Source: Solimonas fluminis (GTDB lineage: Bacteria; Pseudomonadota; Gammaproteobacteria; Nevskiales; Nevskiaceae). From it: a stretch of 64,000 nucleotides of DNA. The stretch lies in the NCBI RefSeq assembly GCF_002930645.1, contig NZ_PSNW01000002.1, positions 62,001 through 126,000 of the forward strand. The letters are read 5' to 3'. Under the pieces are notes generated by a model that saw only the letters and a list, made by a program, of their open reading frames with translations, was not told the DNA's origin and ran no database searches. The position numbers and the translations under genes were made by a program. Of this stretch, positions 6,828-64,000 are shown one piece after another. The number at the start of each line of letters is the position of its first letter. Position 1 is the first letter of the stretch.

Positions 6828-7798
6828 CGTCGATGGCCGGCTGGACGCTGCTGGCCGCCGCCGCAGCGGCGCAGGCGCAGCCCCCGCTGCCGCTGGCGGT
6901 TTCGCGCGTCGCCCCCACGGCGGAATTGCGGCGCGGCGACGACATCCTGGAACTGCGCAGCCGGATAGCGCTGCGGCCGGAAGACCGCATCGTCACCGGC
7001 CCGCAGGGCCGCGTGGCCCTGCAGCTCTACGGCGGCGGCGCCCTGCGGCTGGGCGGCGACAGCACGCTGCGCCTGCACAGCGTCGAGCCGCCCGGGCCCG
7101 GCAACGGCGGTGTCGCCAAGCTGATCCTGGAACGCGGGGCCCTGCGCCTGGACGCCCGGGGCCGCTCAGGCCGGCCGCCCCAGGACTACCGCCTCAACGT
7201 CGGCCGCCTGCGCCTGCGCGTGTTCGGCGGCGAGGCCTGGACCGAACTGACCGCCCGCGGCGAGAACGTCTGCCTGCTGTCGGGCGCGGTGGAGATCGTC
7301 ACCGATACCGGCGGCGAGCGCCTGGACGAGCCGGGCAGCTGCCTGCTGTTCGGCCTGGCGGGCCGCCTGCCGGTGCGGGGCGACGGCGGCGAAGCGCTGC
7401 CGAGAAAGCTGCTGCGCACCGCCTTCGCCGACGACATCAACGCCCGGGCGCTGGCCGAGCAGACCCCGGAGCCGCCGGCCGAGGCGCTGCCGCCGGCCGA
7501 CCCCGGCGCGCCCCTGCCCCTGCCCGGGGATCCGCTGCCGGCCGCGGTGGCCGGTCCGCGCTGGACCCTGGTGCTCGCCTCCTTTCCCGATCCGGCCGCC
7601 GCGGAGAACGCGGTGCGCAGCTGGCTCGGCCAGGGCGAAACGCCGCAGGTGCGCCGCTCCGACACCCCCTCCGGGGTGCGCTACCGCCTGACGGTGGGCG
7701 ACTACGCCGAGCTGGCCCAGGCCCGGGCCGCCCTGGCCGAGCTGCGGGGCCGCCAGCTCGATGCCGCCGAGGCCTGGGTGATGCCCCTGCCGGAGTAG
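6797..7798 (+). CDS. Periplasmic FecR-like protein with C-terminal SPOR domain
   Basis: A 333-residue exported protein. The ATG at 6797 is preferred because it gives a signal peptide with a basic n-region (MILEFIKKSIPSMAGW, then an Ala-rich core ending AQAQ); ATG at 6833 is an alternative, and neither has a good Shine-Dalgarno. A FecR-like beta-rich domain follows (ELRRGDDILELRS, DRIVTGPQGRVALQL, GEAWTEL), then a Pro-rich linker. The last 75 residues look like a SPOR domain (WTLVLASFPDPAAAENAVRS to LRGRQLDAAEAWV). FecR domains usually bind surface signals and SPOR domains bind denuded septal glycan, so a wall-sensing or division-site role is plausible. There is no neighbouring ECF sigma factor. 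Confidence 0.7.
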   Translation: MILEFIKKSIPSMAGWTLLAAAAAAQAQPPLPLAVSRVAPTAELRRGDDILELRSRIALRPEDRIVTGPQGRVALQLYGGGALRLGGDSTLRLHSVEPPGPGNGGVAKLILERGALRLDARGRSGRPPQDYRLNVGRLRLRVFGGEAWTELTARGENVCLLSGAVEIVTDTGGERLDEPGSCLLFGLAGRLPVRGDGGEALPRKLLRTAFADDINARALAEQTPEPPAEALPPADPGAPLPLPGDPLPAAVAGPRWTLVLASFPDPAAAENAVRSWLGQGETPQVRRSDTPSGVRYRLTVGDYAELAQARAALAELRGRQLDAAEAWVMPLPE

Positions 7799-7847
7799 CG
7801 CGGCCCGGGATTTGCTGCACCCTGCAAGGGGCGGGAGATTGCGTCAT

Positions 7848-7882
7848 GAAACCGCCACGACGTTTCTGTACAAGTGTATAGT
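7848..7882 (+). promoter_or_regulatory. Candidate fatty-acid regulator operators before the desaturase
   Basis: Two overlapping dyads precede the gene. GAAAC (7848-7852) and GTTTC (7862-7866) form arms spaced by nine bases. GTACA-AG-TGTAT (7868-7879) is nearly palindromic and resembles the GTACA-N2-TGTAC core I recall for FabR-type TetR repressors of unsaturated fatty-acid genes. The second dyad overlaps a TATAGT -10-like hexamer (7877-7882), a good place for repression. The regulator identity is inference. Confidence 0.45.
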
Positions 7883-7972
7883 GATGCCGTGCCCCCCCGG
7901 GGTTCATGCATGGCGCCTGAAGCCCTGCGAGCGGCCGGTCAGTGCCGCAACGTCTTTCTGGAGAATCGCTGT

Positions 7973-9142
7973 ATGTCATCCGTTTCGGATTCCGCCTGGG
8001 AGCGCGCGCCGCTCAACTGGCCGGCCGTCATCCTGTTCAGCCTGACCACGCTGGGCATGCTCACGGTGTTCCCCTGGTATGCCTGGACGCACGACTTCAG
8101 CACGGCCGCCTGGGTGTGGTTCGTGGTCTTCATGTACGGCACCGGCATGTCGATCACCGGCGGCTACCACCGGCTGTGGGCGCACCGCGCCTACCAGGCC
8201 CACTGGAGCCTGAAGATCGTCTACATGCTGCTGGGCGCCATGTCGCTGCAGAACAGCATCCTGATCTGGGCCTCGATGCACCGCATCCACCACAAGGAAG
8301 TGGATCACCGCGACCGCGATCCCTACTCCGCCGAGCGCGGCCTGTGGTTCTCCCACATGGGCTGGATGCTGCGGAACTACCCCAGCTCCGCGCTCGACTA
8401 CAAGAACGCGCGCGACCTGATGGAAGACCCCATCGTGATGTTCCAGCACAAGCACTACCTGGGCATCGCGCTGTTCATGAACATCGCCGTGCCGGCGCTG
8501 CTGGGCTGGGCCTACGGCGACGTCGGCGGCTTCCTGATGCTGGTGGGCCTGCTGCGCCTGGTGCTGAGCCAGCACTTCACCTTCTTCATCAACTCGCTGG
8601 CCCACTATTGGGGCCGCCAGCCCTACACCACCGAGAACAGCGCCCGCGACAACGACGTGCTGGCCCTGTTCACCTACGGCGAGGGCTACCACAACTACCA
8701 CCACATCTTTCAGTGGGACTACCGCAACGGCATCCGCTGGTGGCAGTGGGACCCCACCAAGTGGATGATCGCCGGCGCGGCCCGCATCGGCCTGGCCTAC
8801 AACCTCAAGCGCGTGCCGGAATTCGTCATCCGCCGCCAGATGGTGCAGCGCCAGCTCGAGCGCGCGCAGGAGCAGCTGGCCAAGGCCCAGCCCGAGGCGC
8901 AGCCGGGCCGCCTGGCCGCGCTGCAGACCCTGCTGGAGCAGGAGCTGAAGCACTACGCCGAGATCGCCTCGGAGTGGGCCAAGCTGCAGCAGGAGAAGCT
9001 GGAGGCCGCCAAGCGCCAGCTGGCCGAGCAGTGGGAGAACAGCGAGGCCCGCGCCCGCATCCGCGCGCTGGAGGACTCCCTGCACCAGCAGCACCGCCGC
9101 CTGCGCCTGCTGAGCCTGCAGGCTGCCCAGGCCGCCGCCTGA
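7973..9142 (+). CDS. Membrane fatty-acid (acyl-CoA delta-9 type) desaturase
   Basis: A 389-residue di-iron desaturase that introduces a cis double bond into acyl chains to adjust membrane fluidity. Three His boxes are present: HRLWAH (66-71), HRIHH (103-107) and HNYHH (near 239-243). Paired hydrophobic segments surround residues 15-55 and about 160-190, the layout of stearoyl-CoA desaturase-like enzymes. The start at 7973 has GGAG nine bases upstream. Unusually, the last roughly 100 residues after the catalytic domain are a hydrophilic Gln/Glu/Ala/Arg-rich helix predicted to form a coiled coil. A strong terminator follows. Substrate form (acyl-CoA or lipid-linked) cannot be decided from sequence. 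Confidence 0.92.
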   Translation: MSSVSDSAWERAPLNWPAVILFSLTTLGMLTVFPWYAWTHDFSTAAWVWFVVFMYGTGMSITGGYHRLWAHRAYQAHWSLKIVYMLLGAMSLQNSILIWASMHRIHHKEVDHRDRDPYSAERGLWFSHMGWMLRNYPSSALDYKNARDLMEDPIVMFQHKHYLGIALFMNIAVPALLGWAYGDVGGFLMLVGLLRLVLSQHFTFFINSLAHYWGRQPYTTENSARDNDVLALFTYGEGYHNYHHIFQWDYRNGIRWWQWDPTKWMIAGAARIGLAYNLKRVPEFVIRRQMVQRQLERAQEQLAKAQPEAQPGRLAALQTLLEQELKHYAEIASEWAKLQQEKLEAAKRQLAEQWENSEARARIRALEDSLHQQHRRLRLLSLQAAQAAA

Positions 9143-9168
9143 TCCGGCCCGGCAGGATCGCTGTAGGA

Positions 9169-9194
9169 AAAAGCCCCGCTCCGGCGGGGCTTTT
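9169..9194 (+). terminator. Terminator after the desaturase
   Basis: AAAAGCCCCGC pairs with GCGGGGCTTTT around a TCCG loop, with the T-run in the 3' arm, 27 bases after the desaturase stop. Confidence 0.8.
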
Positions 9195-9230
9195 CCGTAG
9201 GGGCTGTCGGAGCGCAGTTTCCCGACCACC

Positions 9231-9261
9231 CGAACGGTCATCCGCGGCGCGCGAACGGTCA
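9231..9261 (+). promoter_or_regulatory. Two direct repeats CGAACGGTCA spaced 21 bp
   Basis: Identical ten-mers at 9231-9240 and 9252-9261 start exactly 21 bases (two helical turns) apart, 60-90 bases before the start of the small barrel-like protein gene. Same-face spacing is typical of sites for a dimeric or cooperatively bound activator. The regulator is unknown. Confidence 0.45.
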
Positions 9262-9321
9262 ACTTTCCCACGGGGTTTTGCCGAAGACTGACGATAGATG
9301 CCTGAGCAATCGGGGGGCGTC

Positions 9322-9984
9322 ATGAAGCGGTGCGGCAAGGGGCTTGCGGGTTTGGTGATGCTGGGGTGCTGCGGACCGGCGGCGGCGGACTGCCTGGGAG
9401 AGGAAGGCTTCCGCTGGCTGGGCTGCGCGCCCGAGACGCCCCGGCTCAGCAGCGGCTGGACCGGCGGCGCCGGCTCCGCGCCCCTGGAAGCCGGCTTCCG
9501 CCTGGCCGAATGGAACGGCGATCAGTACGCCAGCCACCGCATGCGCCTGCGCTTCGACGCCCGCACCGATACCGAGGACCTGCTGCGCCGCTGGCGCTAC
9601 GGCGCCGGCCTGGACCTGCAGCTGCCGGGCGCCGGCCTGCTGCAGGCCAGCGTCTCCACCTCCAAGCGCCGCCGCGGCGAAGGCGCGCGCTACGCCTTCA
9701 CGCCGGACGGCCTGTCCAGCCGCCGCCAGGGCGAGCACCCCCTCTGGGCCCTGGGCCTGTCGCTGGCGCCGGCCGACGACAGCGACGGCCGCCGCATGCT
9801 GCTGACGCCGCAGCTGCGCCTGGACGTGGACCGCTGGCTGGACAGCCACGGCAGCGCCGAGCTGTACGTGGAGTACACGCCCTGGATCCACGACCTCAAG
9901 GGCACCTCGCGCGAGGATCGCGAGAACCTGGGGGACAGGCTGGACGAGCGGGTGCCGCAGCTGCGGATGCGCTGGAGGTTCTAG
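9322..9984 (+). CDS. Hypothetical exported beta-rich protein
   Basis: A 220-residue protein I do not recognise. The ATG at 9322 is preferred over 9298 because GGGGGG lies just upstream and it opens a signal peptide (MKRCGKGLAGLVMLGCCGP, cleavage near AAA-DC). The mature part is rich in alternating Arg/Leu/Asp strands such as HRMRLRFDAR, GAGLDLQLP and PQLRLDVDRW, and it ends in MRMRWRF with a C-terminal Phe, as seen in outer-membrane beta-barrel proteins. A short DLKGTSREDRENLGDRLDE stretch near the end may be an extracellular loop. It is monocistronic, with two direct repeats upstream and a terminator downstream. Outer-membrane location is inference. Confidence 0.65.
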   Translation: MKRCGKGLAGLVMLGCCGPAAADCLGEEGFRWLGCAPETPRLSSGWTGGAGSAPLEAGFRLAEWNGDQYASHRMRLRFDARTDTEDLLRRWRYGAGLDLQLPGAGLLQASVSTSKRRRGEGARYAFTPDGLSSRRQGEHPLWALGLSLAPADDSDGRRMLLTPQLRLDVDRWLDSHGSAELYVEYTPWIHDLKGTSREDRENLGDRLDERVPQLRMRWRF

Positions 9985-10004
9985 GCAGACGACCGCAGAA
10001 ACGA

Positions 10005-10031
10005 AAGAAGCCCCGCGATGCGGGGCTTCTT
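10005..10031. terminator. Bidirectional terminator between convergent genes
   Basis: GAAGCCCCGC pairs with GCGGGGCTTC around a GAT loop, with flanking AA/TT extending the stem. It sits between the hypothetical barrel gene and the end of typA and can serve both strands. Confidence 0.8.
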
Positions 10032-10047
10032 CGCGAACAGGGCGGGC

Positions 10048-11886
<1,839 letters not shown>

Positions 11887-12072
11887 GGGGCTGGGGTCCG
11901 ATTGCTGCGGTGCGCAAAAAAGGTCGCGAATTGTACGCGAGAGCCCGTGACGCTGCATGAACGGCTTTTATCGGCCCCCGGCGCCCTTTGGCCCGCCGGC
12001 CGCCCCAAAAGGGGGCCGGGCTGGCTATTTTCCAGCCATGCGGGGCCGTGCCGGCCCGCGCGGAGTCCGCCG

Positions 12073-12999
12073 ATGAAGCCTGCCCCCGTTACCCTCGCCC
12101 CCTACCGCCGCCTGGCCCGCTGGCTGCCCTTCCGGCAGCTGGAGGCCCAGCTTTCCGCCCTGGTGGGCCTGGCCGGCCTGTTGCCGCTGCTGGCCCTGCT
12201 GGCAGGCCTGCTGGTGCCCGGGGCGCCCCGGGCCAGCCTGGTCCTGCTGGGGGTGCTGACCGGGACCGGCCTGGCTCTATGGGGGGTGCAGCAGCTCCTG
12301 GCCCCCCTGCGCATGGCGCAGGCCGCCCTGCGGCTCCGGGCCGCCGAGGGCCGGGTCCAGCCCTTGCCGACCGACCTCGGCGGCGACATGGGCGAGCTGC
12401 TGCGGGAAGTGCGCCGGGCACTGGAGGCGGAGGTCTCCCAGGGCCAGAGCCTGCAGGCCCTGAGCCTGGACGATGCCCTGACCGGCCTGCCCAACCGGCG
12501 TTTCGCCGCCGAGTACCTGCGCCTGGCGGTGCACGTCGCCGAGCGCACCGGGGCGCGCCTGACCGTGGCCCTGGTCGATCCGGAGCACATCTCCCGGGTC
12601 AACGAGCAGGGCGGGATGGACGCCGGCGACCAGGCGATCCGCGGCCTGGGAACCTTCCTGCGCCAGTGGCTCAAGCGCAAGAGCGACTGGCTGGGCCGCT
12701 GGCAGGAGGATCAGTTCCTGGCGGTGATGTTCAGCGAGCACAACCAGGCCGCGGAGTACCTGGAAAACCTGCGGCGCGAGTTCGGGCGCCGCATGCAGGA
12801 TTTCCCGGGCGGGCCGCTGAAGATCAACGTCGGCCTGGCGGAACTGCGCAAGCATGAGACCCTGAAGGACTTCGTCGAGCGCCTGGAGACGGAACTGCGC
12901 CTGGAGAAATGCATGGAGACACGTCCGCCGCCGGCCGACGCCGTGCCGGGGGCGGCGAAGATCTACTCCATTGCCGGCGCGCTGCTGCGGGAGCGCTAG
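12073..12999 (+). CDS. Membrane protein with a degenerate GGDEF domain
   Basis: A 308-residue protein with two N-terminal transmembrane helices (about residues 27-48 and 54-74), a short HAMP-like linker, and a GGDEF-type domain beginning LDDALTGLPNRRFAAEYL. Where active diguanylate cyclases have R-x-GG(D/E)EF, this protein has GRWQEDQFLAVM, so the signature loop is not conserved and c-di-GMP synthesis is unlikely. It may be a GTP or c-di-GMP sensor, or a scaffold. The ATG at 12073 has GGAG seven bases upstream. It is monocistronic, between typA and purT. Family is clear; function is open. Confidence 0.85.
   Translation: MKPAPVTLAPYRRLARWLPFRQLEAQLSALVGLAGLLPLLALLAGLLVPGAPRASLVLLGVLTGTGLALWGVQQLLAPLRMAQAALRLRAAEGRVQPLPTDLGGDMGELLREVRRALEAEVSQGQSLQALSLDDALTGLPNRRFAAEYLRLAVHVAERTGARLTVALVDPEHISRVNEQGGMDAGDQAIRGLGTFLRQWLKRKSDWLGRWQEDQFLAVMFSEHNQAAEYLENLRREFGRRMQDFPGGPLKINVGLAELRKHETLKDFVERLETELRLEKCMETRPPPADAVPGAAKIYSIAGALLRER

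Positions 13000-53398: not shown

Positions 53399-54760
<1,362 letters not shown>

Positions 54761-54763
<3 letters not shown>

Positions 54764-55025: not shown

Positions 55026-55028
<3 letters not shown>
54761..55028. mobile_element. 268-bp MITE-like element with 33-bp perfect terminal inverted repeats
   Basis: Ends 54761-54793 and 54996-55028 are exact inverted repeats (TAGGGCCTGTTAACACTACG and onward). Inside are two more perfect pairs: an 18-bp stem (ACCGTTTTGGCGCAGGGC, 54799-54816, with 54868-54885) and a 19-bp stem (TGCCACCAGATTTGCCGCC, 54900-54918, with 54976-54994), each capped by a loop with its own small hairpin (TGTAC/GTACA; CTTAT/ATAAG). The whole would fold as a three-way junction. 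Both flanking convergent genes end in the terminal TAG. No coding capacity. TA at both outer ends would fit an IS630/mariner-type insertion; this is inference. Confidence 0.75.
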
Positions 55029-56392
<1,364 letters not shown>

Positions 56393-56396
<4 letters not shown>

Positions 56397-56848
56397 CGTC
56401 CTCCATTGAGACGGCGTTCGATCTCGACGACCGCCGCCATGCGCTGGCGCAGGCTCTGCACTTCCACCTGGCATTGGCTGGCGCTGTCGAGTTCGCTCAG
56501 GCGCACCTGGGCCGCGGCGCGCTGGCCGGGGCTGAGGTGCTGGGACAGCAGCTTGCGCAGGCGCTTCTGCGCCACGGCGCGGTTGTAGCCGGAGTGATCC
56601 GGCACGCTCTGCATCAGCGCCACGCGCAGCTTCTGGTCGGTGCCGGGATCGGCCGTGCGCAGCTCTTGCCACAGGGACTCGCGCCGGGCCGGGCTGGCCG
56701 CAAGGGCGTCGGCCAGGAATTCCACCGGCTCCGGCCCGGGGCCGCCGATCGGCAGCCGCCAGGACATCGGCTCCATGCTGGCGCAGCCCGAGAGGCTACA
56801 CAGCAGGAGCAGGCCAAACCATGCTGAAACGCGCACCAGGGCAGGCAT
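56393..56848 (-). CDS. qseG: QseG-like lipoprotein
   Basis: A 151-residue lipoprotein (MPALVRVSAWFGLLLLCSLSGC, lipidated Cys22) with a mostly helical mature domain ending VEVQSLRQRMAAVVEIERRLNGG. It lies between the sensor and regulator genes, overlapping both, exactly where QseG lies in the GlrK-QseG-GlrR cassette; sequence similarity to E. coli QseG is low, so the name rests on position and lipoprotein nature. QseG is reported to interact with the sensor kinase at the outer membrane. Confidence 0.7.
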
Positions 56849-58235
56849 CCGCCACCTCCACGATTCCGCTGTGCGCCTGCGCGGTCTCGCGCACGATCGA
56901 CAGCCCAACGCCCGTGCCGGGAATGCCGGATTCCTCCGACTCGCCGCCGCGCACGAACGGCTCGAAAATCTTTTCCTTCTCCGCCTCCACCACGCCGCGC
57001 CCGCGGTCTCGCACCTGCAGTTCGCAGCGGCCTCCGCGCATGCCGGCGGCCAGGTCGATGGTGCTTCCCGCCGGCGCGTGCTTGATGGCATTGGTCAGCA
57101 GGTTGTCCAGGGCCGTGCGCAGCTGCGCCCGCTGGCCATGGAGGCGCGGCGAGGACAGTTCCACGGAGGCCTGGAGGCCGCGGCGCGCCAGCGGCAGGCG
57201 ATGGGCCGCGATCACCTCCGCCAGCAGCGGCGCGGCGTCGAACCACTCCATGGAGGCCTCGACGCGGTCGTTGCGCCACTCGGCATAGGCCAGCAGGTTG
57301 TCGATCAGCTTCTCGAGGTCCTCGGAAGACTCCGTCAGGATCGCCGCCACCTCGGCCTGGCGCGGCGTCAGCTCGCCCAGCGACCCCTCGCGCATCAGCG
57401 CCGCGCCCTCGCTGATGCTGGCCAGCGGGGTCTTCAGCTCGTGCGAGACGTGCCTCAGGAAGCGGTCCTTGTCGGCAGCCAGCTGCGCCAGGCGCAGGCG
57501 CAGCCAGTCGAGCCGCTCGGCCAGCTTCTTGAGCTCCAGCGGGAACTCCACGGCGATGGGCTTCTGGTAGCGCGAGTGCCCCATCTCCGCGACACCGCGC
57601 GCCATGCTGCGCAGGGGCCGCGACACGGCGATGGAGAAGCACACCGCCAGCAGGGCGGTCATTGGCACCAGGGCCAGTGCCAGCCACAGCATGGTGCGCC
57701 GCGCCTCCGCGGCCTCGCGGCGCAGCTGCGCGATGCGCTCGTCGGCCTGTCGCCGCGCCTCGGTGACGATGGGATCGATGTCGTAGGACAGGGTGTGCAG
57801 GCGCGTGACGACCTCCGCCAGCGGCGCCTCCGAGCCGATGCTGCGCGACCAGGCGCTGGCGGCCTCGGCCAGTCCCTGGCGCAGGCGCGCCAGGGGCACG
57901 CCCAGGCGCTCGTCCTCCGGCTCCTGCCGCTGCCGCTCCAGGCGGTCCAGCGTGGCGTCGATGTCCGCCAGGCGGCTGGCGAAGAGTTCCAGCAAGGCCG
58001 GATCGCCGAGCGCCACGTACTGGCGGGCATTGCGTTCCAGCTGGCTGAGGTTGTCGCGCAGGTCGCTGCCCAGCAGCGCCAGGGTCATGCTCTCCTGCAT
58101 CAGGCGGTCAGCCTGCCGCGCATGGCGCTGCAGCGCCAGGTCCGCCAGCGCCAGCGCGGCCAGCAGCGGCAGAGCCACGAACACGCAGCCGGTGGTTACC
58201 AGCACGGTCATCGTCCGGGGCAGCGGCAGGCGCAT
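56796..58235 (-). CDS. glrK: Sensor histidine kinase GlrK (QseE-like)
   Basis: A 479-residue inner-membrane kinase. TM1 at about 10-33 (VLVTTGCVFVALPLLAAL), a helical periplasmic domain, TM2 at about 185-205 (LWLALALVPMTALLAVCFSI), HAMP, HisKA with His in FLRHVSHELKTPLASI and an HATPase domain (NLLTNAIKHAPAG, DRGRGV, GTGVGLSIVRETAQAH). E. coli GlrK has 475 residues. The start at 58235 (MRLPLPRTMTV) is the best match, though ATG 58211 is possible. It is co-transcribed with qseG and glrR and divergent from the polysaccharide operon. Confidence 0.9.
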   Translation of the reverse strand: MRLPLPRTMTVLVTTGCVFVALPLLAALALADLALQRHARQADRLMQESMTLALLGSDLRDNLSQLERNARQYVALGDPALLELFASRLADIDATLDRLERQRQEPEDERLGVPLARLRQGLAEAASAWSRSIGSEAPLAEVVTRLHTLSYDIDPIVTEARRQADERIAQLRREAAEARRTMLWLALALVPMTALLAVCFSIAVSRPLRSMARGVAEMGHSRYQKPIAVEFPLELKKLAERLDWLRLRLAQLAADKDRFLRHVSHELKTPLASISEGAALMREGSLGELTPRQAEVAAILTESSEDLEKLIDNLLAYAEWRNDRVEASMEWFDAAPLLAEVIAAHRLPLARRGLQASVELSSPRLHGQRAQLRTALDNLLTNAIKHAPAGSTIDLAAGMRGGRCELQVRDRGRGVVEAEKEKIFEPFVRGGESEESGIPGTGVGLSIVRETAQAHSGIVEVADACPGARFSMVWPAPAV

Positions 58236-58511
58236 CGACGGCACATCCGGTCCTTGGAAGCAGGTGGCGACATCCTTGCGCCACAGCCTTGTGACTGGTG
58301 CCGGCTGGCAACAGTTCCCCGGGCCTCGCGGCGCTCCGCGTCTGCGATCGGCGACGGACGGAAAAGCGCGTGCCGGCGAGGGTTTGCGCGGCAAGCGCCG
58401 CCGGGCTGTCGGGATTCGGCGACGCTTACGCGACGGCGCGTGGGCCCGCCGCGGCTCCAGCCTCGCCCCGGTGCGGGCCAAGTGCTTGTTTGATCTCGAT
58501 TGCCACGGCCA

Positions 58512-58527
58512 TGGCACGGCCGTTGCC
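58512..58527 (+). promoter_or_regulatory. Sigma-54 promoter of the polysaccharide operon
   Basis: TGGCAC-GGCCG-TTGC matches the sigma-54 consensus TGGCAC-N5-TTGC at every defined position, with GG (58513-58514) and GC (58525-58526) twelve bases apart. Predicted start near 58538, about 63 bases before the GTG of the first gene. The rest of the 365-base gap from glrK shows several GC-rich imperfect dyads but no gene. Confidence 0.75.
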
Positions 58528-58600
58528 CTGTTCACCTCAAGCCCAGGACGGGCGTGCCGTGTCCCCATGAACGGCTTTCCAAGGACAGGAGAGGCTGACC

Positions 58601-60016
58601 GTGACCAGCAACGACATCGCGATACTTGCCCCCCGACGACCGGATGGAGGACGCCTGCTGCTGGCCGGTCGTGTCGCGCACTGCTTCGACGACTACCGCG
58701 AGTTCCGCGAATCCGGCCTCAAGCCGGCAGCGTTCATCATCCGCTGCACCGACGCCGCGGCCACCGGCGACTGGCTGCGGCAGGTCCGCAGGGACCCCGA
58801 TCACGCCGCGCGGCTGGTCTTCGTGGAAGGCGCCGTCTCCGACACCGATGCGGCGATCGGCGATGGACCGCTGCCGGACAGCGTCACGGCGCTCACCGAA
58901 CGCATCGACGCCAGTGCGGCACGGGCCCAGGCCATCCGCGGCAAGGATGACGACCGCAGCCCGGCCGCGCTGCTGCTGGAATACCTGTGGCTGCGGCCTG
59001 GCGCGGTGCTGGAACCGCGCGCCGACTGGCGGCATCCCCGGCTGTACCACTATCCGTTGCTCGATGCGCTGGAACGCGGCGATGCCGACCCGCAGGACTG
59101 GCTGCAGCAGCTGGACCGCGATGGCCTGCTGACCCGCGGCGAGCTGCGCGCGCGCCAGCGCGAGTGCGACTTCTGCGGCAGCGCGCACCTGCGCTTCATC
59201 GACGTCTGCCCGAGCTGCCGCTCCATCGACATCGACCAGCATGCCGCCCTGCACTGCTTCACCTGCGGCCTGGTCGCGCCGGAAGACCGCTTCACGCACG
59301 GCGGCGGCCGCTGCTGCCCGAAGTGCGGCAGCCACCTGCGCCATATCGGCACCGACTACGACCGCCCGCTGGAGACCACGGCCTGCGGCAGCTGCCAGCA
59401 TGTATTCGTCGAAGGCGAGGTGGTGGCCCATTGCGCGATCTGCGATCACTCGATGGCACCCACGGCCCTGCGGCTGCACAAGCTGTGGTCCTGGCGCCTC
59501 AGCAGCCTCGGCTGCCTGGTGGCGCAGGGCCGCAGCCAGGCGCAGTCGCCGGCGCTGTTCGATACCCAGCACTACGCCACCCGCGGGCACTTCCTGCACA
59601 GCCTCGACTGGCTGCTGAAGATCGGCCGCAGCCAGGGCACGCGCCTGGCCCTGGTGGGTCTGCGCCTGCGCAACGGCCGCGAGCTGGCGGCGGCACTCGG
59701 CGGCGGCCGCTGTGCGCAGCTTCTGGACAGCTTCGCCGAGCGCCTGCGCGAGCTGCTGGCCGAGGCCGATCTCGGTTGCCGCCTGGACCAGGAAACCCTG
59801 TGCCTGCTGCTGCCGGGCGCCGACCGCAAGCGCCTGAAGCAGCTGGAGCGGCAGCTGGGCGAACTGCAGCAGCGCGCGCTGCAGCCGGAGGGCATCGGCC
59901 CCCAGTGGGGGATGGCGGAGATGTCCCCCGACTCCGCGGACACCGATGCAGGCCGCCTGCTGGCGCGGCTGGAACAACGGCTGGGAGGCCCCGCGGAAGC
60001 GCGGGTGGCCGCCTGA
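58601..60016 (+). CDS. TackOD1-like zinc-ribbon protein with degenerate GGDEF-like tail
   Basis: A 471-residue soluble protein, GTG start with AGGAGAGG upstream. Residues about 1-115 resemble a pseudo-receiver domain. The centre holds six C-x2-C pairs (189/192, 203/206, 219/222, 239/242, 262/265, 278/281), predicting three zinc ribbons as in TackOD1 output domains (ECDFCGSAHLRFIDVCPSC). Residues about 320-465 follow the GGDEF fold (LDWLLKIGRSQGTRLALVGL, then CRLDQETLCLLLPGAD), but the GGDEF loop is replaced by LDQET. It is probably a regulatory or c-di-GMP-linked control subunit for the downstream glycosyltransferase. Confidence 0.75.
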   Translation: MTSNDIAILAPRRPDGGRLLLAGRVAHCFDDYREFRESGLKPAAFIIRCTDAAATGDWLRQVRRDPDHAARLVFVEGAVSDTDAAIGDGPLPDSVTALTERIDASAARAQAIRGKDDDRSPAALLLEYLWLRPGAVLEPRADWRHPRLYHYPLLDALERGDADPQDWLQQLDRDGLLTRGELRARQRECDFCGSAHLRFIDVCPSCRSIDIDQHAALHCFTCGLVAPEDRFTHGGGRCCPKCGSHLRHIGTDYDRPLETTACGSCQHVFVEGEVVAHCAICDHSMAPTALRLHKLWSWRLSSLGCLVAQGRSQAQSPALFDTQHYATRGHFLHSLDWLLKIGRSQGTRLALVGLRLRNGRELAAALGGGRCAQLLDSFAERLRELLAEADLGCRLDQETLCLLLPGADRKRLKQLERQLGELQQRALQPEGIGPQWGMAEMSPDSADTDAGRLLARLEQRLGGPAEARVAA

Positions 60017-60017
60017 G

Positions 60018-61352
60018 ATGGATGCCCTGTTCGACAACCTGGCCTCCGGCCTCGCCGTGTTCCTGGCGATGGTCAGCGGCGATGCCCAGACGCTGGCGCT
60101 GAAGTTCGCGCCCTTTGCGCTGCTGCTGGAGATGCCGCTGTACCTGCTGACCTGGCTGGGCGTGATGCACTACCTGTGGCGGCGCCACAGCGATCCACCG
60201 GCGGAGATCCCCTACTACCCTCGCGTGACCTGCATCTGCAACGCCTATGCCGAGGGCCGCGACGTGCAGTATTCGGTGCGCTCGCTGCTGGAGCAGATCT
60301 ATCCCGGGCACATCGAGCTGCTGCTGGTGCTCGATGGCGCCGTCGCCAACCGCGCCACCTACGACGCGATCAAGGAACTGGTGCCGCAGTTCGGCGGGCG
60401 CCACAACCGCTCGGTGCGCTTCATCCCCAAGCCGCAGCGCGGCGGCCGCGTCTCCGCCACCAACACCGGCCTGCTCTACGCCACCGGCGAGATCGTGATG
60501 GCGCTGGACGCCGATACGTCCTTCGACAACGAGATGGTGGCGCATGCGATCAAGCCCTTCGCCAATCCCAACGTCGTCGCCGCCACCGGCCCGCTGCGCG
60601 CGCGCAACGGCCGCAAGGCGCTGATCACGCGGCTGCAGGCGGTGGAGTACATGCTGGCGATCTACCTGGGCAAGGTCGGCCTGGCCGAGTGGAACCTGAT
60701 CAACAACCTGCCCGGCGCCTTCATGATCTACCGCAAGTCGATCCTCGATCATGTCGGCGGCTGGAATACCGGCACCGGCGAGGACCTGGACCTGACGCTG
60801 CGCGTCAAGCAGTACCTGCGCCGGCACCCGGAGCTGAAGCTGGTGTTCGCCCCCGGTGCCGTGGCGCACACCGAGGTGCCGGACACCTTCTCCATGTTCT
60901 ACAAGCAGCGCCTGCGCTGGGATGGCGACCTGTCCTACGTCTACTTCCGCAAGCACTGGCATGCCTTCTCGCCGATGATCGGCTGGCGCAACTTCATCGC
61001 CAATACCTGGTACGGCCTGCTGTTCCAGATCTTCCTGCCGATGCTGCAGGTGGGCTTCCTGGCCTGGATGCTGGTCTTCCAGCCGGTGCCGTTCTTCATC
61101 GGCACGATGCTGCTGGTCTACTGCTTCTACCTGGCCATCACGGTGCTGCAGTTCCTGCTGTTCCTGGCATTGCTGTCCGAACGCCCCGCGCAGGACGCGC
61201 CGTATCTCTGGGTGCTGCCGCTGATGCCGCTGTTCATGGTGTCGGCGCGTGTCTGGAGCGTCGTCGCCACGTTCCACGAATGGTTCAACCGCGCCCACCA
61301 GGATTCCCCGATGGGGCCGTGGTGGGTCATCCGCCAGGGAGGCCCCCGATGA
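60018..61352 (+). CDS. Processive GT2 glycosyltransferase (BcsA-like polysaccharide synthase)
   Basis: A 444-residue inner-membrane family-2 glycosyltransferase. One or two N-terminal TM segments (about 27-54), a cytoplasmic catalytic domain with D106 (LVLDGA), D164-x-D166 (ALDADTSF), TGED (253-256) and Q-R-L-R-W (297-301), then several C-terminal TM helices (about 335-420). The D, DxD, TED, QxxRW set is that of processive beta-glycan synthases such as cellulose, hyaluronan or PNAG synthases; the sugar is unknown. It begins one base after the preceding stop and its own stop overlaps the next gene (ATGA), so the operon is tightly coupled. Confidence 0.9.
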   Translation: MDALFDNLASGLAVFLAMVSGDAQTLALKFAPFALLLEMPLYLLTWLGVMHYLWRRHSDPPAEIPYYPRVTCICNAYAEGRDVQYSVRSLLEQIYPGHIELLLVLDGAVANRATYDAIKELVPQFGGRHNRSVRFIPKPQRGGRVSATNTGLLYATGEIVMALDADTSFDNEMVAHAIKPFANPNVVAATGPLRARNGRKALITRLQAVEYMLAIYLGKVGLAEWNLINNLPGAFMIYRKSILDHVGGWNTGTGEDLDLTLRVKQYLRRHPELKLVFAPGAVAHTEVPDTFSMFYKQRLRWDGDLSYVYFRKHWHAFSPMIGWRNFIANTWYGLLFQIFLPMLQVGFLAWMLVFQPVPFFIGTMLLVYCFYLAITVLQFLLFLALLSERPAQDAPYLWVLPLMPLFMVSARVWSVVATFHEWFNRAHQDSPMGPWWVIRQGGPR

Positions 61353-63811
61353 GACGCCTGCTGACCACCACGACCCTGCTGGCATTGCTCGCCGGCGCCC
61401 CGGCACGGGCCGAGGAACTGCTGCTCGAGAACCTGCTTGGCGATACCGACAAGGCCGCCAGCGTGCTGCAGGCGGAGTCGGAGCTCAATGCCGCCGGCAG
61501 CGAACTGAAGCGGGACCGCGCCGAGAAGGGCTGGCGCATGACTGGCGCGGCCGGCTACGGGCATATCCAGGACGTGGTCGACGAGGGCCGATCGATCTCC
61601 TACCAGGCGGCCCAGGCGCAGCTCGGCCTGGCCTATCCGCTGTTCGGCTCCTCCGAGAAGCAGGCGCGCGCCATCGGCCTGTCCAGCGGCAAGGCGGACG
61701 AGAAGAAGCTGCGCCTGGAGGCGGCCAGGCGCCTGGCGCAGCTGGAGCTGGAGGCGCAGTACGCCCGCTACTGGGGCGCTCAGGAGGGCCTGCGCGTGGT
61801 GGACAGCTACCTGGAGAGCGAGCCGCTGCTGCTGCCGCGCCTGCAGCAGCGCCAGGACAAGCGGATGATGCTGGGCTCGCAGCTGATCGACGCCGGTGCC
61901 GGCTATGCCCGCGCGCGCAGCGACCGTGCGCAACTGCTGGCGCAGCGCAATGCCGCGCGCGCGCGGCTGGAGCGCCTGACCGGGCGCAAGCTGGCGGAAC
62001 TGGAGGCCCGCGCCACCGAGTTGCCGGACGAGATCGACCTGCCGGCCGGACCGGCGCTGCAGCGGCACCCCGACCTGGCGGCACTGCAGCTGCAGCGCGA
62101 AACCCTGCAGCGCCAGCTCAAGGACAGCCGCTGGTACGGCCTCGACGGCGCCTTCAACGTCAACGCCAACACGGTCCACGACACCACCAACTCGGAAACC
62201 GGCGGCAACGCCTTCGTCGGCGTCAACCTCAGCGCGCCGCTGTCGCTGGGCAGCGCACGCCGCGCCGAGCGCGACCGCCTCAACGCCGAAACCGAGACGC
62301 TGACGCTGCGCTACCGGCAGCGCCAGGAGGAACTGGTGGCCGACATCAGCGGCGCGCGCGACAAGCTGGCGCAGCTGCGGGAGGAGACTGCCGCCGCGGG
62401 CGAACGCACCCGCGGCGCCCACGAGGCCCTGCGCGAACGCCTGCGCCGCAGCGGCGTCTTCGCCGAGGACGGGATCGAGGCCCTGGGCGGACGCCTGCAG
62501 ACCTACTACGCCGCAGCCCTGTCGGAGATCGACGCCCGCACGCGCGGCTGGATCGCCAATGTCGAGGCGCGGGCCTATGCCCTGGCGGTGGCCGAGGACG
62601 CCACGCCGCCGCGGCGCCCGCCGCTGCCCGAGGCCGCGCTGGGCCTGCGGCTGGCGGAACCGATCGCCGCGGTGACGCAGCAGCTGGGCAGCAGCCGCTC
62701 GCAGTCCGCGCCGCGCACGCCGGAGACCGACACCGGCGGCACCGGGGCGGCGCCGGTCCCGCTGCGCGCGGAGCTGCCGCCGGCGCGCAAGGACGTCGGC
62801 ATCGATCCCTCGCGCTGGCTCAAGCCGGTGGAGGCAAGGCCGCTGGCGCGCTTCCAGCTGGCCAGCGCCATGGAAGGCGGCGCCGCCATTCCGGTGGCCG
62901 CCTCGATGGACGCGGCCATGCCGCCCGAGGCCATGCCGGTGGCGCACACGACGGCGGCGGTGCCGGACGCGGCCGGGATCGCGGCCGGACACGCGGCCAG
63001 CCGCGGCGCCGTGGTGTCGCGCGGCAAGGGCGACGACATGGCGGTCTACGTCTGGGACAGCCGCGAGCTCTTCAGCCGGCTGCAGAACCGCGAGCGCTAC
63101 TGGAAGTTCCTGCGGCGCCTGTCGATCGACCGCCTGCTGGTGTCGCTGGACGCGGCCCAGATCGCCGAACTGCGGCAGCGCCCGGCGCCCCTGAGCGGCT
63201 TCCTGCAGAACGCGCGCAAGCGCGGGGTGAAGGTGGAGCTGCTGCTCGGCGAGCCGACCTGGATCGAGCCCGAGGGGCGCGAGCAGCTGGTGGAGCTGAT
63301 CGCCGGCCTCTGGGATTTTCCCTTCGACGGCCTGCACCTGGATATCGAGCCGGACCAGATCTACCGGCAGCCGCTGTCGCGCGAGCAGTTCGACAACTGG
63401 GTCAAGAGCATGACCACGGCCGCCAAGGCCTCGCCCTGGCCCACCGCGATCAGCGTGCATCCGCGCTATTTCCGCGATGCGCCCTACCGGGACTGGGGCC
63501 TGGCCGAGCGCCTGCGCGAAGCCGGCGTCGAGGACGTGACCCTGATGATCTTCAACTCGAAGCCGGAGAACGTGGCCGGCGTGGCCAAGCCGATCCTGGC
63601 GGCGGCACCGCAACTGCGCTTCCGCGTGGCGCAGAGCGTCGAGCCTCAGCTCGACGCCACCGAGAGCCACGCAAGGAAGAGCCGCGCGGACTTCGAGAAC
63701 TCGATGGAGCGGCTGCAGCAGCTGCTGCAGCCGCAGGCAAACGCCGACGGCATCGTCGTGCAGGCATGGGCAGACCTGATGAGGATGGGCTATGAAAGTG
63801 AGATTCGTTAA
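61349..63811 (+). CDS. TolC-type outer-membrane channel fused to a TIM-barrel hydrolase-like domain
   Basis: An 820-residue exported protein (signal MRRLLTTTTLLALLAGAPARA; AGGGAGG upstream). Residues about 30-450 resemble an outer-membrane efflux (TolC) protein: long coiled-coil helices such as QAESELNAAGSELKRDRAEKG and LRYRQRQEELVADISGARDKL, and strand pairs around YQAAQAQLGLAYPLFG and NAFVGVNLSAPLSLG. An Ala/Pro-rich linker (about 455-560) leads to residues 565-820, which look like a (beta/alpha)8 glycosidase-like domain: AVYVWDSRELF, RLLVSLDAAQIAEL, FDGLHLDIEPDQIYR with candidate acidic residues, and WPTAISVHPRYF. The fusion suggests export plus trimming of the polysaccharide at the outer membrane. 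Confidence 0.75.
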   Translation: MRRLLTTTTLLALLAGAPARAEELLLENLLGDTDKAASVLQAESELNAAGSELKRDRAEKGWRMTGAAGYGHIQDVVDEGRSISYQAAQAQLGLAYPLFGSSEKQARAIGLSSGKADEKKLRLEAARRLAQLELEAQYARYWGAQEGLRVVDSYLESEPLLLPRLQQRQDKRMMLGSQLIDAGAGYARARSDRAQLLAQRNAARARLERLTGRKLAELEARATELPDEIDLPAGPALQRHPDLAALQLQRETLQRQLKDSRWYGLDGAFNVNANTVHDTTNSETGGNAFVGVNLSAPLSLGSARRAERDRLNAETETLTLRYRQRQEELVADISGARDKLAQLREETAAAGERTRGAHEALRERLRRSGVFAEDGIEALGGRLQTYYAAALSEIDARTRGWIANVEARAYALAVAEDATPPRRPPLPEAALGLRLAEPIAAVTQQLGSSRSQSAPRTPETDTGGTGAAPVPLRAELPPARKDVGIDPSRWLKPVEARPLARFQLASAMEGGAAIPVAASMDAAMPPEAMPVAHTTAAVPDAAGIAAGHAASRGAVVSRGKGDDMAVYVWDSRELFSRLQNRERYWKFLRRLSIDRLLVSLDAAQIAELRQRPAPLSGFLQNARKRGVKVELLLGEPTWIEPEGREQLVELIAGLWDFPFDGLHLDIEPDQIYRQPLSREQFDNWVKSMTTAAKASPWPTAISVHPRYFRDAPYRDWGLAERLREAGVEDVTLMIFNSKPENVAGVAKPILAAAPQLRFRVAQSVEPQLDATESHARKSRADFENSMERLQQLLQPQANADGIVVQAWADLMRMGYESEIR

Positions 63812-64000
63812 GCCGGAGCAGGGTGACCCTGCCCGCGACCGCGGCATCCAGGTGCCCTATGCGCCGGGCAAGCGCCACCTTGCGCGCTGGCGCTGGTACC
63901 TGATCCTGCTGGTGGTCAGCAGCCCGCTGCTCTACTTCGTCGGCAAGGCGCTGTGGTCCTCGGTGGCGGTGGAAGCCCCCGGCGTGATCGCCCAGGAGCA
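63792..64000 (+). CDS. HlyD-family membrane-fusion protein (3' partial)
   Basis: Starts inside the previous gene (20-base overlap, ATG at 63792 with GAGGATG upstream) and runs off the window. The 69 visible residues comprise a basic cytoplasmic start (MKVRFVKPEQGDPARDRGIQ), a single TM helix (WYLILLVVSSPLLYFVGKAL) and the beginning of a periplasmic part (VEAPGVIAQE), the usual opening of HlyD/EmrA/Alg44-type adaptors that link an inner-membrane synthase to a TolC-like channel. No PilZ domain fits before the helix. Identification rests on the N-terminus and operon position. Confidence 0.65.
   Translation, partial: MKVRFVKPEQGDPARDRGIQVPYAPGKRHLARWRWYLILLVVSSPLLYFVGKALWSSVAVEAPGVIAQE

Follow-up and report, generated by a model that had tools for sequence, protein, structure and literature searches.

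A candidate exopolysaccharide synthesis and export operon of Solimonas fluminis with a TackOD1/GGDEF regulator and a channel fused to a TIM barrel

Four coupled genes and their products

This report concerns a run of four genes at the end of a 64,000-nucleotide stretch of Solimonas fluminis DNA (contig segment C12:62001-126000 of a 4.67 Mb draft genome; the whole stretch is called the window below), a candidate operon for the synthesis and export of an exopolysaccharide. The four open reading frames (ORFs) lie on the + strand, are open throughout and overlap or abut one another over 58601-64000, in line with the initial annotation, which had described them as tightly coupled. They encode a regulator made of an N-terminal region, a TackOD1 domain and a degenerate GGDEF domain (58601..60016), a membrane-bound processive polysaccharide synthase of glycosyltransferase family 2 (GT2; 60018..61352), a TolC-like outer-membrane channel fused to a hydrolase-like TIM-barrel domain (61349..63811) and a HlyD membrane-fusion protein (63792..64000 in the window, ending at 64979 past its edge). 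Extending the sequence beyond the window (locus L006) completed the HlyD gene and added to the same tight run the genes of an NAD-dependent, PelX-like epimerase (64976-65971 in extended coordinates) and of a glmS paralogue (66005-67837); downstream of glmS a convergent DUF1003 gene ends the run. No bcs, alg, pga or pel locus appeared in this extension, and a search of L006 with Rfam at gathering scores gave no match.

The GT2, assigned by Pfam, motifs and hydrophobicity, matches Glycos_transf_2 (65.8 bits) and carries the catalytic residues D106, DxD at 164-166, ED at 255-256 and QRLRW at 297-301. These four elements are intact in 78/78 aligned GT2 rows, in which the window protein is counted twice. 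Five hydrophobic stretches, some of them overlapping, exceed the threshold. The top NCBIfam model is PgaC/IcaA (116.3 bits), followed by an XrtG-associated glycosyltransferase and then by NodC (78 bits for a cut-off of 550); this ranking is known for the window protein only among the 20 GT2s scanned, all of which match both PgaC/IcaA and NodC. No PilZ domain was matched in the window GT2 (Pfam, E up to 0.1), and the gene is single-copy in the genome at E 0.001.

The third protein joins two folds. Its first part (61349..62581; signal peptide, four beta strands and helical barrel) matches the OEP domain (Pfam, 63.5 bits), and the AlphaFold model of the fusion shows the features of TolC, namely four beta strands and long helices; Foldseek pairs this model with TolC structures (E 4e-17). 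A low-confidence, probably disordered linker of ~110 residues separates this part from the TIM barrel (63035..63808). Modelled in isolation from an alignment of 79 sequences, the barrel reaches a mean pLDDT of 90.8, and its conserved residues stand at the C-terminal ends of the strands: D118/E120 on beta4, H157/R159 on beta5, M186/Y188 on beta6, S216/E218 on beta7 and Q258/W260 on beta8. This placement, as modelled, is that of a glycoside hydrolase and suggests hydrolase activity. In the VIA ranking, the barrel was closest to Cwp19 (Z 18.3, root-mean-square deviation 3.7-3.8, 240 aligned), chitinases took ranks 3-12 (Z 17.3-16.1), and PgaB and PslG stood at Z 15.4-15.6. Foldseek gave a different picture: with the whole fusion, TolC relatives came top and the barrel part drew only unspecific TIM barrels (MTHFR, GH10), and with the barrel alone the list was similarly unspecific, so that Cwp19 and the chitinases topped only the VIA ranking. 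The signature of GH18 chitinases comprises DxxDxDxE at beta4, MxY at beta6 and W at beta8. The barrel has the beta4 D-x-E, and its Tyr on beta6 and Trp on beta8 are nearly invariant; in the inner D-x-D-x-E, however, His replaces the first Asp, and the invariant beta7 Glu of the barrel would suit other clans than GH18 too.

The initial annotation had read this protein as outer-membrane exit and trimming. Channel and barrel are both present, and it is the location of the trimming that needs revision. TolC has periplasmic termini, and because the barrel hangs from the C-terminus of the channel it should be periplasmic; this is its most likely position, rather than the outer exit. Consistent with it, stand-alone barrels of related loci have hydrophobic, signal-peptide-like N-termini in the 12 inspected. 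Their sequences suggest that stand-alone barrels may derive from a fused ancestor in which the channel was internally deleted. By eye, those of three Pseudomonas loci (L068, L078 and L090) keep a short stretch resembling the start of OEP. A further homologue of the channel-barrel fusion (OEP:GH) lies in L110 of genome G355 (7149-11251, -) and is followed by a polysaccharide deacetylase-like gene; no GT2, TackOD1 or HlyD match was found in the 19 kb around it.

The adaptor matches HlyD_3 (Pfam, 35.1 bits) and has a single N-terminal membrane segment. Pfam matches, together with the AlphaFold models, thus bear out the synthase, the channel-barrel fusion and the membrane-fusion protein of the initial annotation. 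Its zinc-ribbon regulator was the right call in one respect, TackOD1 (PF18551) being matched with 202.8 bits for a cut-off of 32, and incomplete in another, as the same protein also has a degenerate GGDEF domain. The latter is a weak Pfam match (33.2 bits for a cut-off of 23.8), and its fold is supported by the best PDB profile match (E 2.9e-8). No membrane segment was predicted in the regulator. Its 12 cysteines form three four-Cys sets; across 77 rows, 11 of them never vary and the twelfth is retained in all rows but one. The GG[DE]EF motif at 396-400, on the other hand, is kept in no row: Gly396 is found in 0/77, and the motif is absent from the 12 distant ones as well. Since it is replaced in every row examined, the domain is not a working cyclase.

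What has been retained is the RxxDxxxR register ahead of the lost motif. D390 is present in 77/77 rows, and the arginine of the I-site, R387, in 83/84 proteins from outside the Nevskiaceae (72/72 of the first set and 11/12 more distant ones), the sole exception being L142, with His. In contrast, the six Nevskiaceae proteins have A, I, A, G, S and A at this position (Arg in 0/6), and the window protein has A387. These rows share descent, so the counts are not independent, and the loss in Nevskiaceae fits a single event. In this tally the window and L006 are one protein and were counted once, L108, L109 and L112 were left out as possible repeats, and L039, whose TackOD1 is truncated, was left out of the motif alignment. 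According to the accessible parts of PMC8461298 and PMC7439463, the RxxD I-site is where diguanylate cyclases, and also the dead GGDEF domains of PelD and BcsE, bind cyclic di-GMP (c-di-GMP). In most lineages, therefore, as far as its residues can tell, the TackOD1/GGDEF protein is probably a c-di-GMP receptor of the PelD/BcsE kind.

Recurrence of the gene set and the likely sugar

A search of genome contigs with a nine-sequence OEP:GH profile found 132 relatives; loci from 80 of these were analysed, which with the window locus make 81. Gene order was counted on the 77 loci uncut by a contig end (76 and the window), that is, without L060, L063, L079 and L096; L068 and L072, which share a contig, may represent a single locus. 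TackOD1, GT2, barrel and HlyD follow one another in the same order and on one strand in 77/77 of these loci, and 0/77 lack the GT2. Such uniformity is far from what chance would give. The loci belong to Nevskiaceae (L021-L023 being operon-bearing Nevskiaceae or Nevskia relatives), Nitrosomonas, Pseudomonas, Stutzerimonas, Ralstonia, Cupriavidus, two metagenome-assembled genomes of Desulfobacterota and others. The operon is nevertheless patchy within its own family, with 5/58 genomes by OEP:GH, and 6/85 genomes of the order by GT2. One locus of the independent sample described next, L111, has the same four parts in permuted gene order, which argues that these parts work together.

An independent Pfam search for TackOD1 found matches over the cut-off in 15/398 Pseudomonadota genomes and in 0/14 control genomes. 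The 15 genomes hold 16 loci, a count that leaves out three matches below the cut-off. GT2 and HlyD adjoin TackOD1 in 16/16 of them (the contig of L138 ends within HlyD); five gave an OEP:GH match, and a sixth, L139, a weak one. This distribution indicates a core of TackOD1, GT2 and HlyD, to which the channel and hydrolase are added as an optional module. Two members of the same family (f40), L139 and L140, encode proteins of 723 and 880 aa upstream of HlyD, one weakly matching the barrel profile and the other containing an AMIN domain; they may be divergent channel components or serve in cell-wall anchoring.

In the flanks, where genes were called by codon usage (unsupervised clustering of flanking ORFs was dropped, as it contained many spurious reverse-strand ORFs), no other gene accompanies the core in most loci, except the epimerase and, in Nevskiaceae, glmS. 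The Lnb_N, DUF2388 and DPBB neighbours and a fusion of GT4 and glycogen-debranching (GDE) domains are lineage-specific. In two Pseudomonas loci a GT4 glycosyltransferase protein follows the operon (L068:12965-16180 and L053:12006-15248), that of L068 being fused to a glycogen-debranching/GH-like domain. Two Nitrosomonas records show genes split over two frames, GT2 and OEP in L027 and HlyD in L039, through gene decay or assembly error.

The epimerase and glmS bear on the sugar. The best PDB match of the operon epimerase is 6wjb/6wj9 (259.5 bits), which we take to be PelX of P. protegens, and the epimerase of the Pseudomonas version L049 scores 454 bits against this entry. PelX is described in the available text of PMC9135694 as a UDP-GlcNAc C4-epimerase. 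An epimerase gene lies directly 3' of HlyD in 17/81 loci (four Nevskiaceae and 13 Pseudomonas), and glmS is present in 4/81. Another glmS, 61% identical to that of the operon, lies elsewhere in the genome, so the operon copy is a paralogue. Together, a PelX-like epimerase and a second glmS in the operon make N-acetylhexosamine (HexNAc) the probable sugar of the polymer.

Promoter and two-component cassette shared with alginate operons

A sigma54-type (-24/-12) promoter, TGGCACGGCCGTTGCC (58512..58527, +), lies 89 nt ahead of the TackOD1 start codon; the first base of this site is the very position at which the initial annotation had begun the operon. The sequence TGTCGGGATTCGGCGACG (58407..58424), 105 nt before the sigma54 site, resembles TGTC-N10-GACA with 1 mismatch. 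Divergent from the operon, on the - strand, are the genes of a GlrK-like sensor histidine kinase (HAMP-HisKA-HATPase by Pfam; 56796..58235), of a small putative lipoprotein of 151 aa with an LSGC lipobox (56393..56848) and of a GlrR-like response regulator of the NtrC family (receiver, sigma54-activator AAA+ and HTH_8 by Pfam; 55026..56396). The lipoprotein gave no Pfam match at E 0.01; homologues occupy the same position in other Nevskiaceae operon loci, and a small lipoprotein placed between kinase and regulator is presumably QseG-like. A second NtrC-family sigma54 response regulator (Pfam) lies near the GlrR-like one at 53399-54763 (+). The promoter and the divergent two-component system, like the degenerate GGDEF domain and the downstream epimerase and glmS, are features that the initial annotation did not contain.

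Sigma54 sites were scored upstream of 76 loci, leaving out L025 (gap rule) and truncated loci. The four top scores are those of the four Nevskiaceae loci of that set, a level reached by 0.9% of random 381-nt pieces. Two further Nevskiaceae loci, L107 and L113, have a site with a score of 29 each, which brings the total to 6/6. Outside the Nevskiaceae, the upstream regions show no sigma54 enrichment. The kinase, lipoprotein and NtrC-type regulator genes adjoin the operon in 6/6 Nevskiaceae operon genomes.

The same cassette also occurs without the operon. Orthologues of the regulator (E up to 1e-100) were found in 18/58 genomes of the family, twelve of which lack the operon. Nine of the twelve were inspected; G030 was considered by coordinates only, and G027 and G035 were left out. 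In 6/9 inspected loci (L144, L145, L146, L148, L150 and L152) the cassette and an alginate operon diverge from each other. AlgD and Alg8 are present in 6/6, AlgA in five, a phosphomannomutase in four, and Alg44 and AlgK in both stretches that reach far enough. The AlgD of L146 matches GDP-mannose 6-dehydrogenase with 683.5 bits, and the Alg44 of L148 contains PilZ and matches the solved Alg44. Further along, G045 (L153) holds Alginate_exp, AlgG (704.6 bits for a cut-off of 700), MBOAT, two AlgX-type proteins and an alginate lyase, and in G030 regulator and Alg8 are ~4 kb apart by coordinates. A sigma54 site with a score of 28-31 lies upstream of the first alginate gene in 6/6 loci.

The TGTC-N10-GACA sequence, presumably the GlrR-site consensus of enterobacteria, was first seen in the alginate loci, in a palindrome search upstream of twelve sigma54 sites. 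Allowing one mismatch, the 400 nt upstream contain 1, 1, 2, 5, 3 and 2 such sites in the operon loci and 3, 3, 3, 3, 1 and 3 in the alginate loci; the expectation from the rest of the same loci is 0.139 per locus. One site stands at -104 or -105 from the sigma54 site in 6/6 operon loci (in one case with two mismatches) and in 5/6 alginate loci, and further ones lie near -171 and -238. In the 500 nt upstream of 72 non-Nevskiaceae loci there is no enrichment (11 sites for ~10.9 expected).

Two observations speak against this account of the cassette. In L022 the cassette is downstream of the operon, being divergent in only 5/6 genomes, and in 3/9 inspected loci (L147, L149 and L151) no alginate genes stand beside it, which means that the cassette has other targets too. 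L149 and L151 have four sigma54-like sites each. Those of L151 (G056) include two near-perfect ones (score 31) close to the cassette, at 7031 (-) and 12266 (-), the former upstream of the gene of a small exported protein, perhaps another target of the cassette.

With its putative sites, its sigma54 promoter and an adjacent NtrC-type regulator, the promoter region of the window fits a GlrK-GlrR regulon, and we infer that a GlrK/GlrR-like system activates the Nevskiaceae operon through sigma54. That the same cassette precedes alginate operons is strong circumstantial evidence that the other operon also makes an exopolysaccharide. Taken with the regulator alignment, control through the c-di-GMP I-site appears to have been swapped in Nevskiaceae for a sigma54/GlrR-like promoter that relatives use for alginate. 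The S. fluminis genome itself has no Alg8 at E 1e-100, and L006 has no match to AlgA, AlgD, Alg8, Alg44 or AlgK; across the family Alg8 occurs in 0/6 operon genomes and in 16/52 others, too few genomes to claim exclusion.

Interpretation, rival explanations and related systems

Our results strongly suggest that the operon serves exopolysaccharide synthesis and export, as the initial annotation had proposed: to the gene set they add the epimerase, glmS, the recurrence of the four genes and the cassette shared with alginate. We put at about 0.75 the probability that it encodes a synthase-dependent HexNAc exopolysaccharide system consisting of the GT2, HlyD, a TolC-like channel, a trimming barrel and the TackOD1/GGDEF partner, and switched in Nevskiaceae by GlrR and sigma54. 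The GlmS paralogue and the C4-epimerase would supply UDP-GlcNAc and/or UDP-GalNAc, and the GT2 would polymerise the N-acetylhexosamine and thread the chain across the inner membrane. HlyD would span the periplasm to the dedicated TolC-like channel in the outer membrane, both carrying the polymer out, and the channel-tethered barrel may trim or clear chains in the periplasm. Periplasmic cleavage is known from other systems, by AlgL, BcsZ, PgaB and PelA domains. The cytoplasmic TackOD1/GGDEF protein may gate the synthase as its regulatory partner; Nevskiaceae have probably lost gating by c-di-GMP, and transcription would set the supply there.

Several observations weigh against this interpretation. 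The window GT2 falls far short of the PgaC/IcaA cut-off (116.3 for 422.3 bits), and the models of MftF, EpsD and AglG likewise match 20/20 GT2s. No Pfam family matches the barrel at its cut-off, nor does any PDB sequence profile (E up to 1), and in 24/77 loci the barrel stands alone, without a fused channel. L133-L137 and L140-L143 gave no OEP:GH match, and loci without this protein, or without a fused channel, must use another outer-membrane channel. Because the epimerase and glmS are limited to 17/81 and 4/81 loci, GalNAc need not be general. Control by c-di-GMP is unsupported for S. fluminis, whose protein lacks the I-site Arg, and ten more sigma54-like sites of equal score lie elsewhere in the six operon loci.

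A broader reading, which we hold tentatively and at a little short of even odds, is that TackOD1, GT2 and HlyD, with or without OEP:GH, make up a widespread unrecognised class of synthase-dependent exopolysaccharide system in Pseudomonadota, with TackOD1/GGDEF as its obligate c-di-GMP receptor, and that in Nevskiaceae this class was captured by the GlrR/sigma54 cassette that drives alginate and then lost its second-messenger control.

The rival that survives best, although we consider it unlikely, is a Pel-like, GalNAc-rich polymer made by convergent machinery. A PelX-like epimerase is adjacent in two lineages, a glmS paralogue is part of the operon, and most relatives have a degenerate GGDEF domain with RxxD as in PelD (PMC8461298, in the part available). 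However, neither a PelF GT4 nor a PelA/B/C/E/G-like gene was found in the operon (Pfam/NCBIfam). GT2 enzymes are also inverting. They would hence make beta linkages, unlike Pel, which is alpha-1,4-linked according to the title of PMC9135694, and this counts against a Pel-like product.

The product might instead be a surface glycan of low abundance, such as an NfrB-type phage receptor, and not a polymer of the biofilm matrix. NfrA/NfrB is a GT2 system with an outer-membrane partner, and genes alone do not fix the amount of product; the regulatory cassette common to alginate operons points, on the contrary, to a bulk exopolysaccharide, and leaves this explanation with rather poor odds. Poorer still are those of a divergent poly-N-acetylglucosamine (PNAG, Pga) system in which PgaA, PgaB and PgaD were exchanged for OEP, GH and HlyD. 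PgaC_IcaA is indeed the top model of the window GT2 and matches 20/20 GT2s, and the barrel also matches PgaB (VIA Z 15.4), but so does NodC, another HexNAc synthase model, match 20/20, the window GT2 has 116 bits where 422 are the cut-off, and the operon has no PgaA-, PgaB- or PgaD-like gene (Pfam/NCBIfam). That this is a tripartite efflux or type I secretion operon with an incidental GT2, for which OEP and HlyD are the typical pump parts, is very improbable, as the operon genes include no ABC, RND or MFS inner-membrane transporter (Pfam/NCBIfam), the GT2 is missing from no uncut locus and the TackOD1-GT2-HlyD core occurs without a detected OEP.

The HexNAc exopolysaccharide system proposed here is thus not Pga, Pel, cellulose or alginate, which upholds one half of the claim that the combination was unrecognised. 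The other half has to be qualified, for the GT2-HlyD-TolC layout has a precedent in XcsAB-TolC, the nearest published system, a proposed cyanobacterial cellulose exporter (Maeda et al. 2018, via the accessible part of PMC12430437). As that source describes it, XcsAB-TolC shares with our operon a GT2 synthase with D,D,D,QxxRW, a HlyD-like adaptor, a TolC-like channel and a hydrolase, the XcsC endoglucanase. The Xcs synthase has PilZ, unlike the window GT2, and its product is cellulose, whereas the best model of the window GT2 is a HexNAc synthase. In T. vulcanus the xcs genes lie apart from one another, and the route of export is so far only a model (PMC12430437, same part); here channel and barrel are one operon-encoded protein and the partner is the TackOD1/GGDEF regulator. 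BgsBA of rhizobia, which makes a mixed-linkage glucan, likewise has GT2 and a HlyD-domain protein in one operon. It is controlled post-translationally by c-di-GMP, which binds the C-terminus of BgsA itself, and the available portion of PMC9495663 mentions neither the OEP nor the TackOD1 found here.

Individual parts have closer relatives. A catalytically dead GGDEF domain with RxxD is found in the exopolysaccharide systems of PelD and BcsE, too, where its companions are a GAF domain and a degenerate receiver, respectively (PMC8461298, PMC7439463, in the parts available), instead of the zinc ribbons of TackOD1; in Nevskiaceae the RxxD Arg is lost in addition. Compared with the TolC/OEP family, fold and Pfam match are the same, and the C-terminal TIM barrel joined through a long low-confidence linker is what differs. 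The Nevskiaceae alginate operons have the same divergent two-component system, sigma54 site and site spacing, and entirely different exopolysaccharide genes. In the open-access literature searched, which leaves most subscription papers outside, we did not find the TackOD1 partner, the OEP:GH fusion, the HexNAc setting or the regulatory exchange. We therefore count the operon among the synthase-dependent exopolysaccharide systems, although it may form a separate class.

If this is true, a machinery for an exopolysaccharide outside the list of cellulose, alginate, PNAG, Pel and Psl is present in many species of Pseudomonas, Stutzerimonas and Nitrosomonas, and GT2, HlyD and TolC-like export are united in one operon. 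An XcsAB-TolC-like mechanism for operon-organised clusters is named as an open question in the accessible part of PMC12430437. TackOD1 would gain a role as partner of a polysaccharide synthase. PMC5847659, on archaeal two-component systems and the one paper of the literature searched in which TackOD1 appears, describes this domain in archaeal response regulators and some bacteria and calls its function obscure, and the portion available mentions no link to exopolysaccharides. The Nevskiaceae would be a natural experiment in which the control of a biofilm polymer was swapped from post-translational to transcriptional, and in which it can be tested whether gain of the sigma54/GlrR promoter compensates for loss of the I-site, with the alginate operons under the same cassette as a comparison. 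A last observation concerns L142, the locus with His at the I-site, where a second pair, a PilZ-bearing GT2 and a HlyD (9158-12468, -), lies beside TackOD1-GT2-HlyD and resembles Xcs- or Bgs-type systems.

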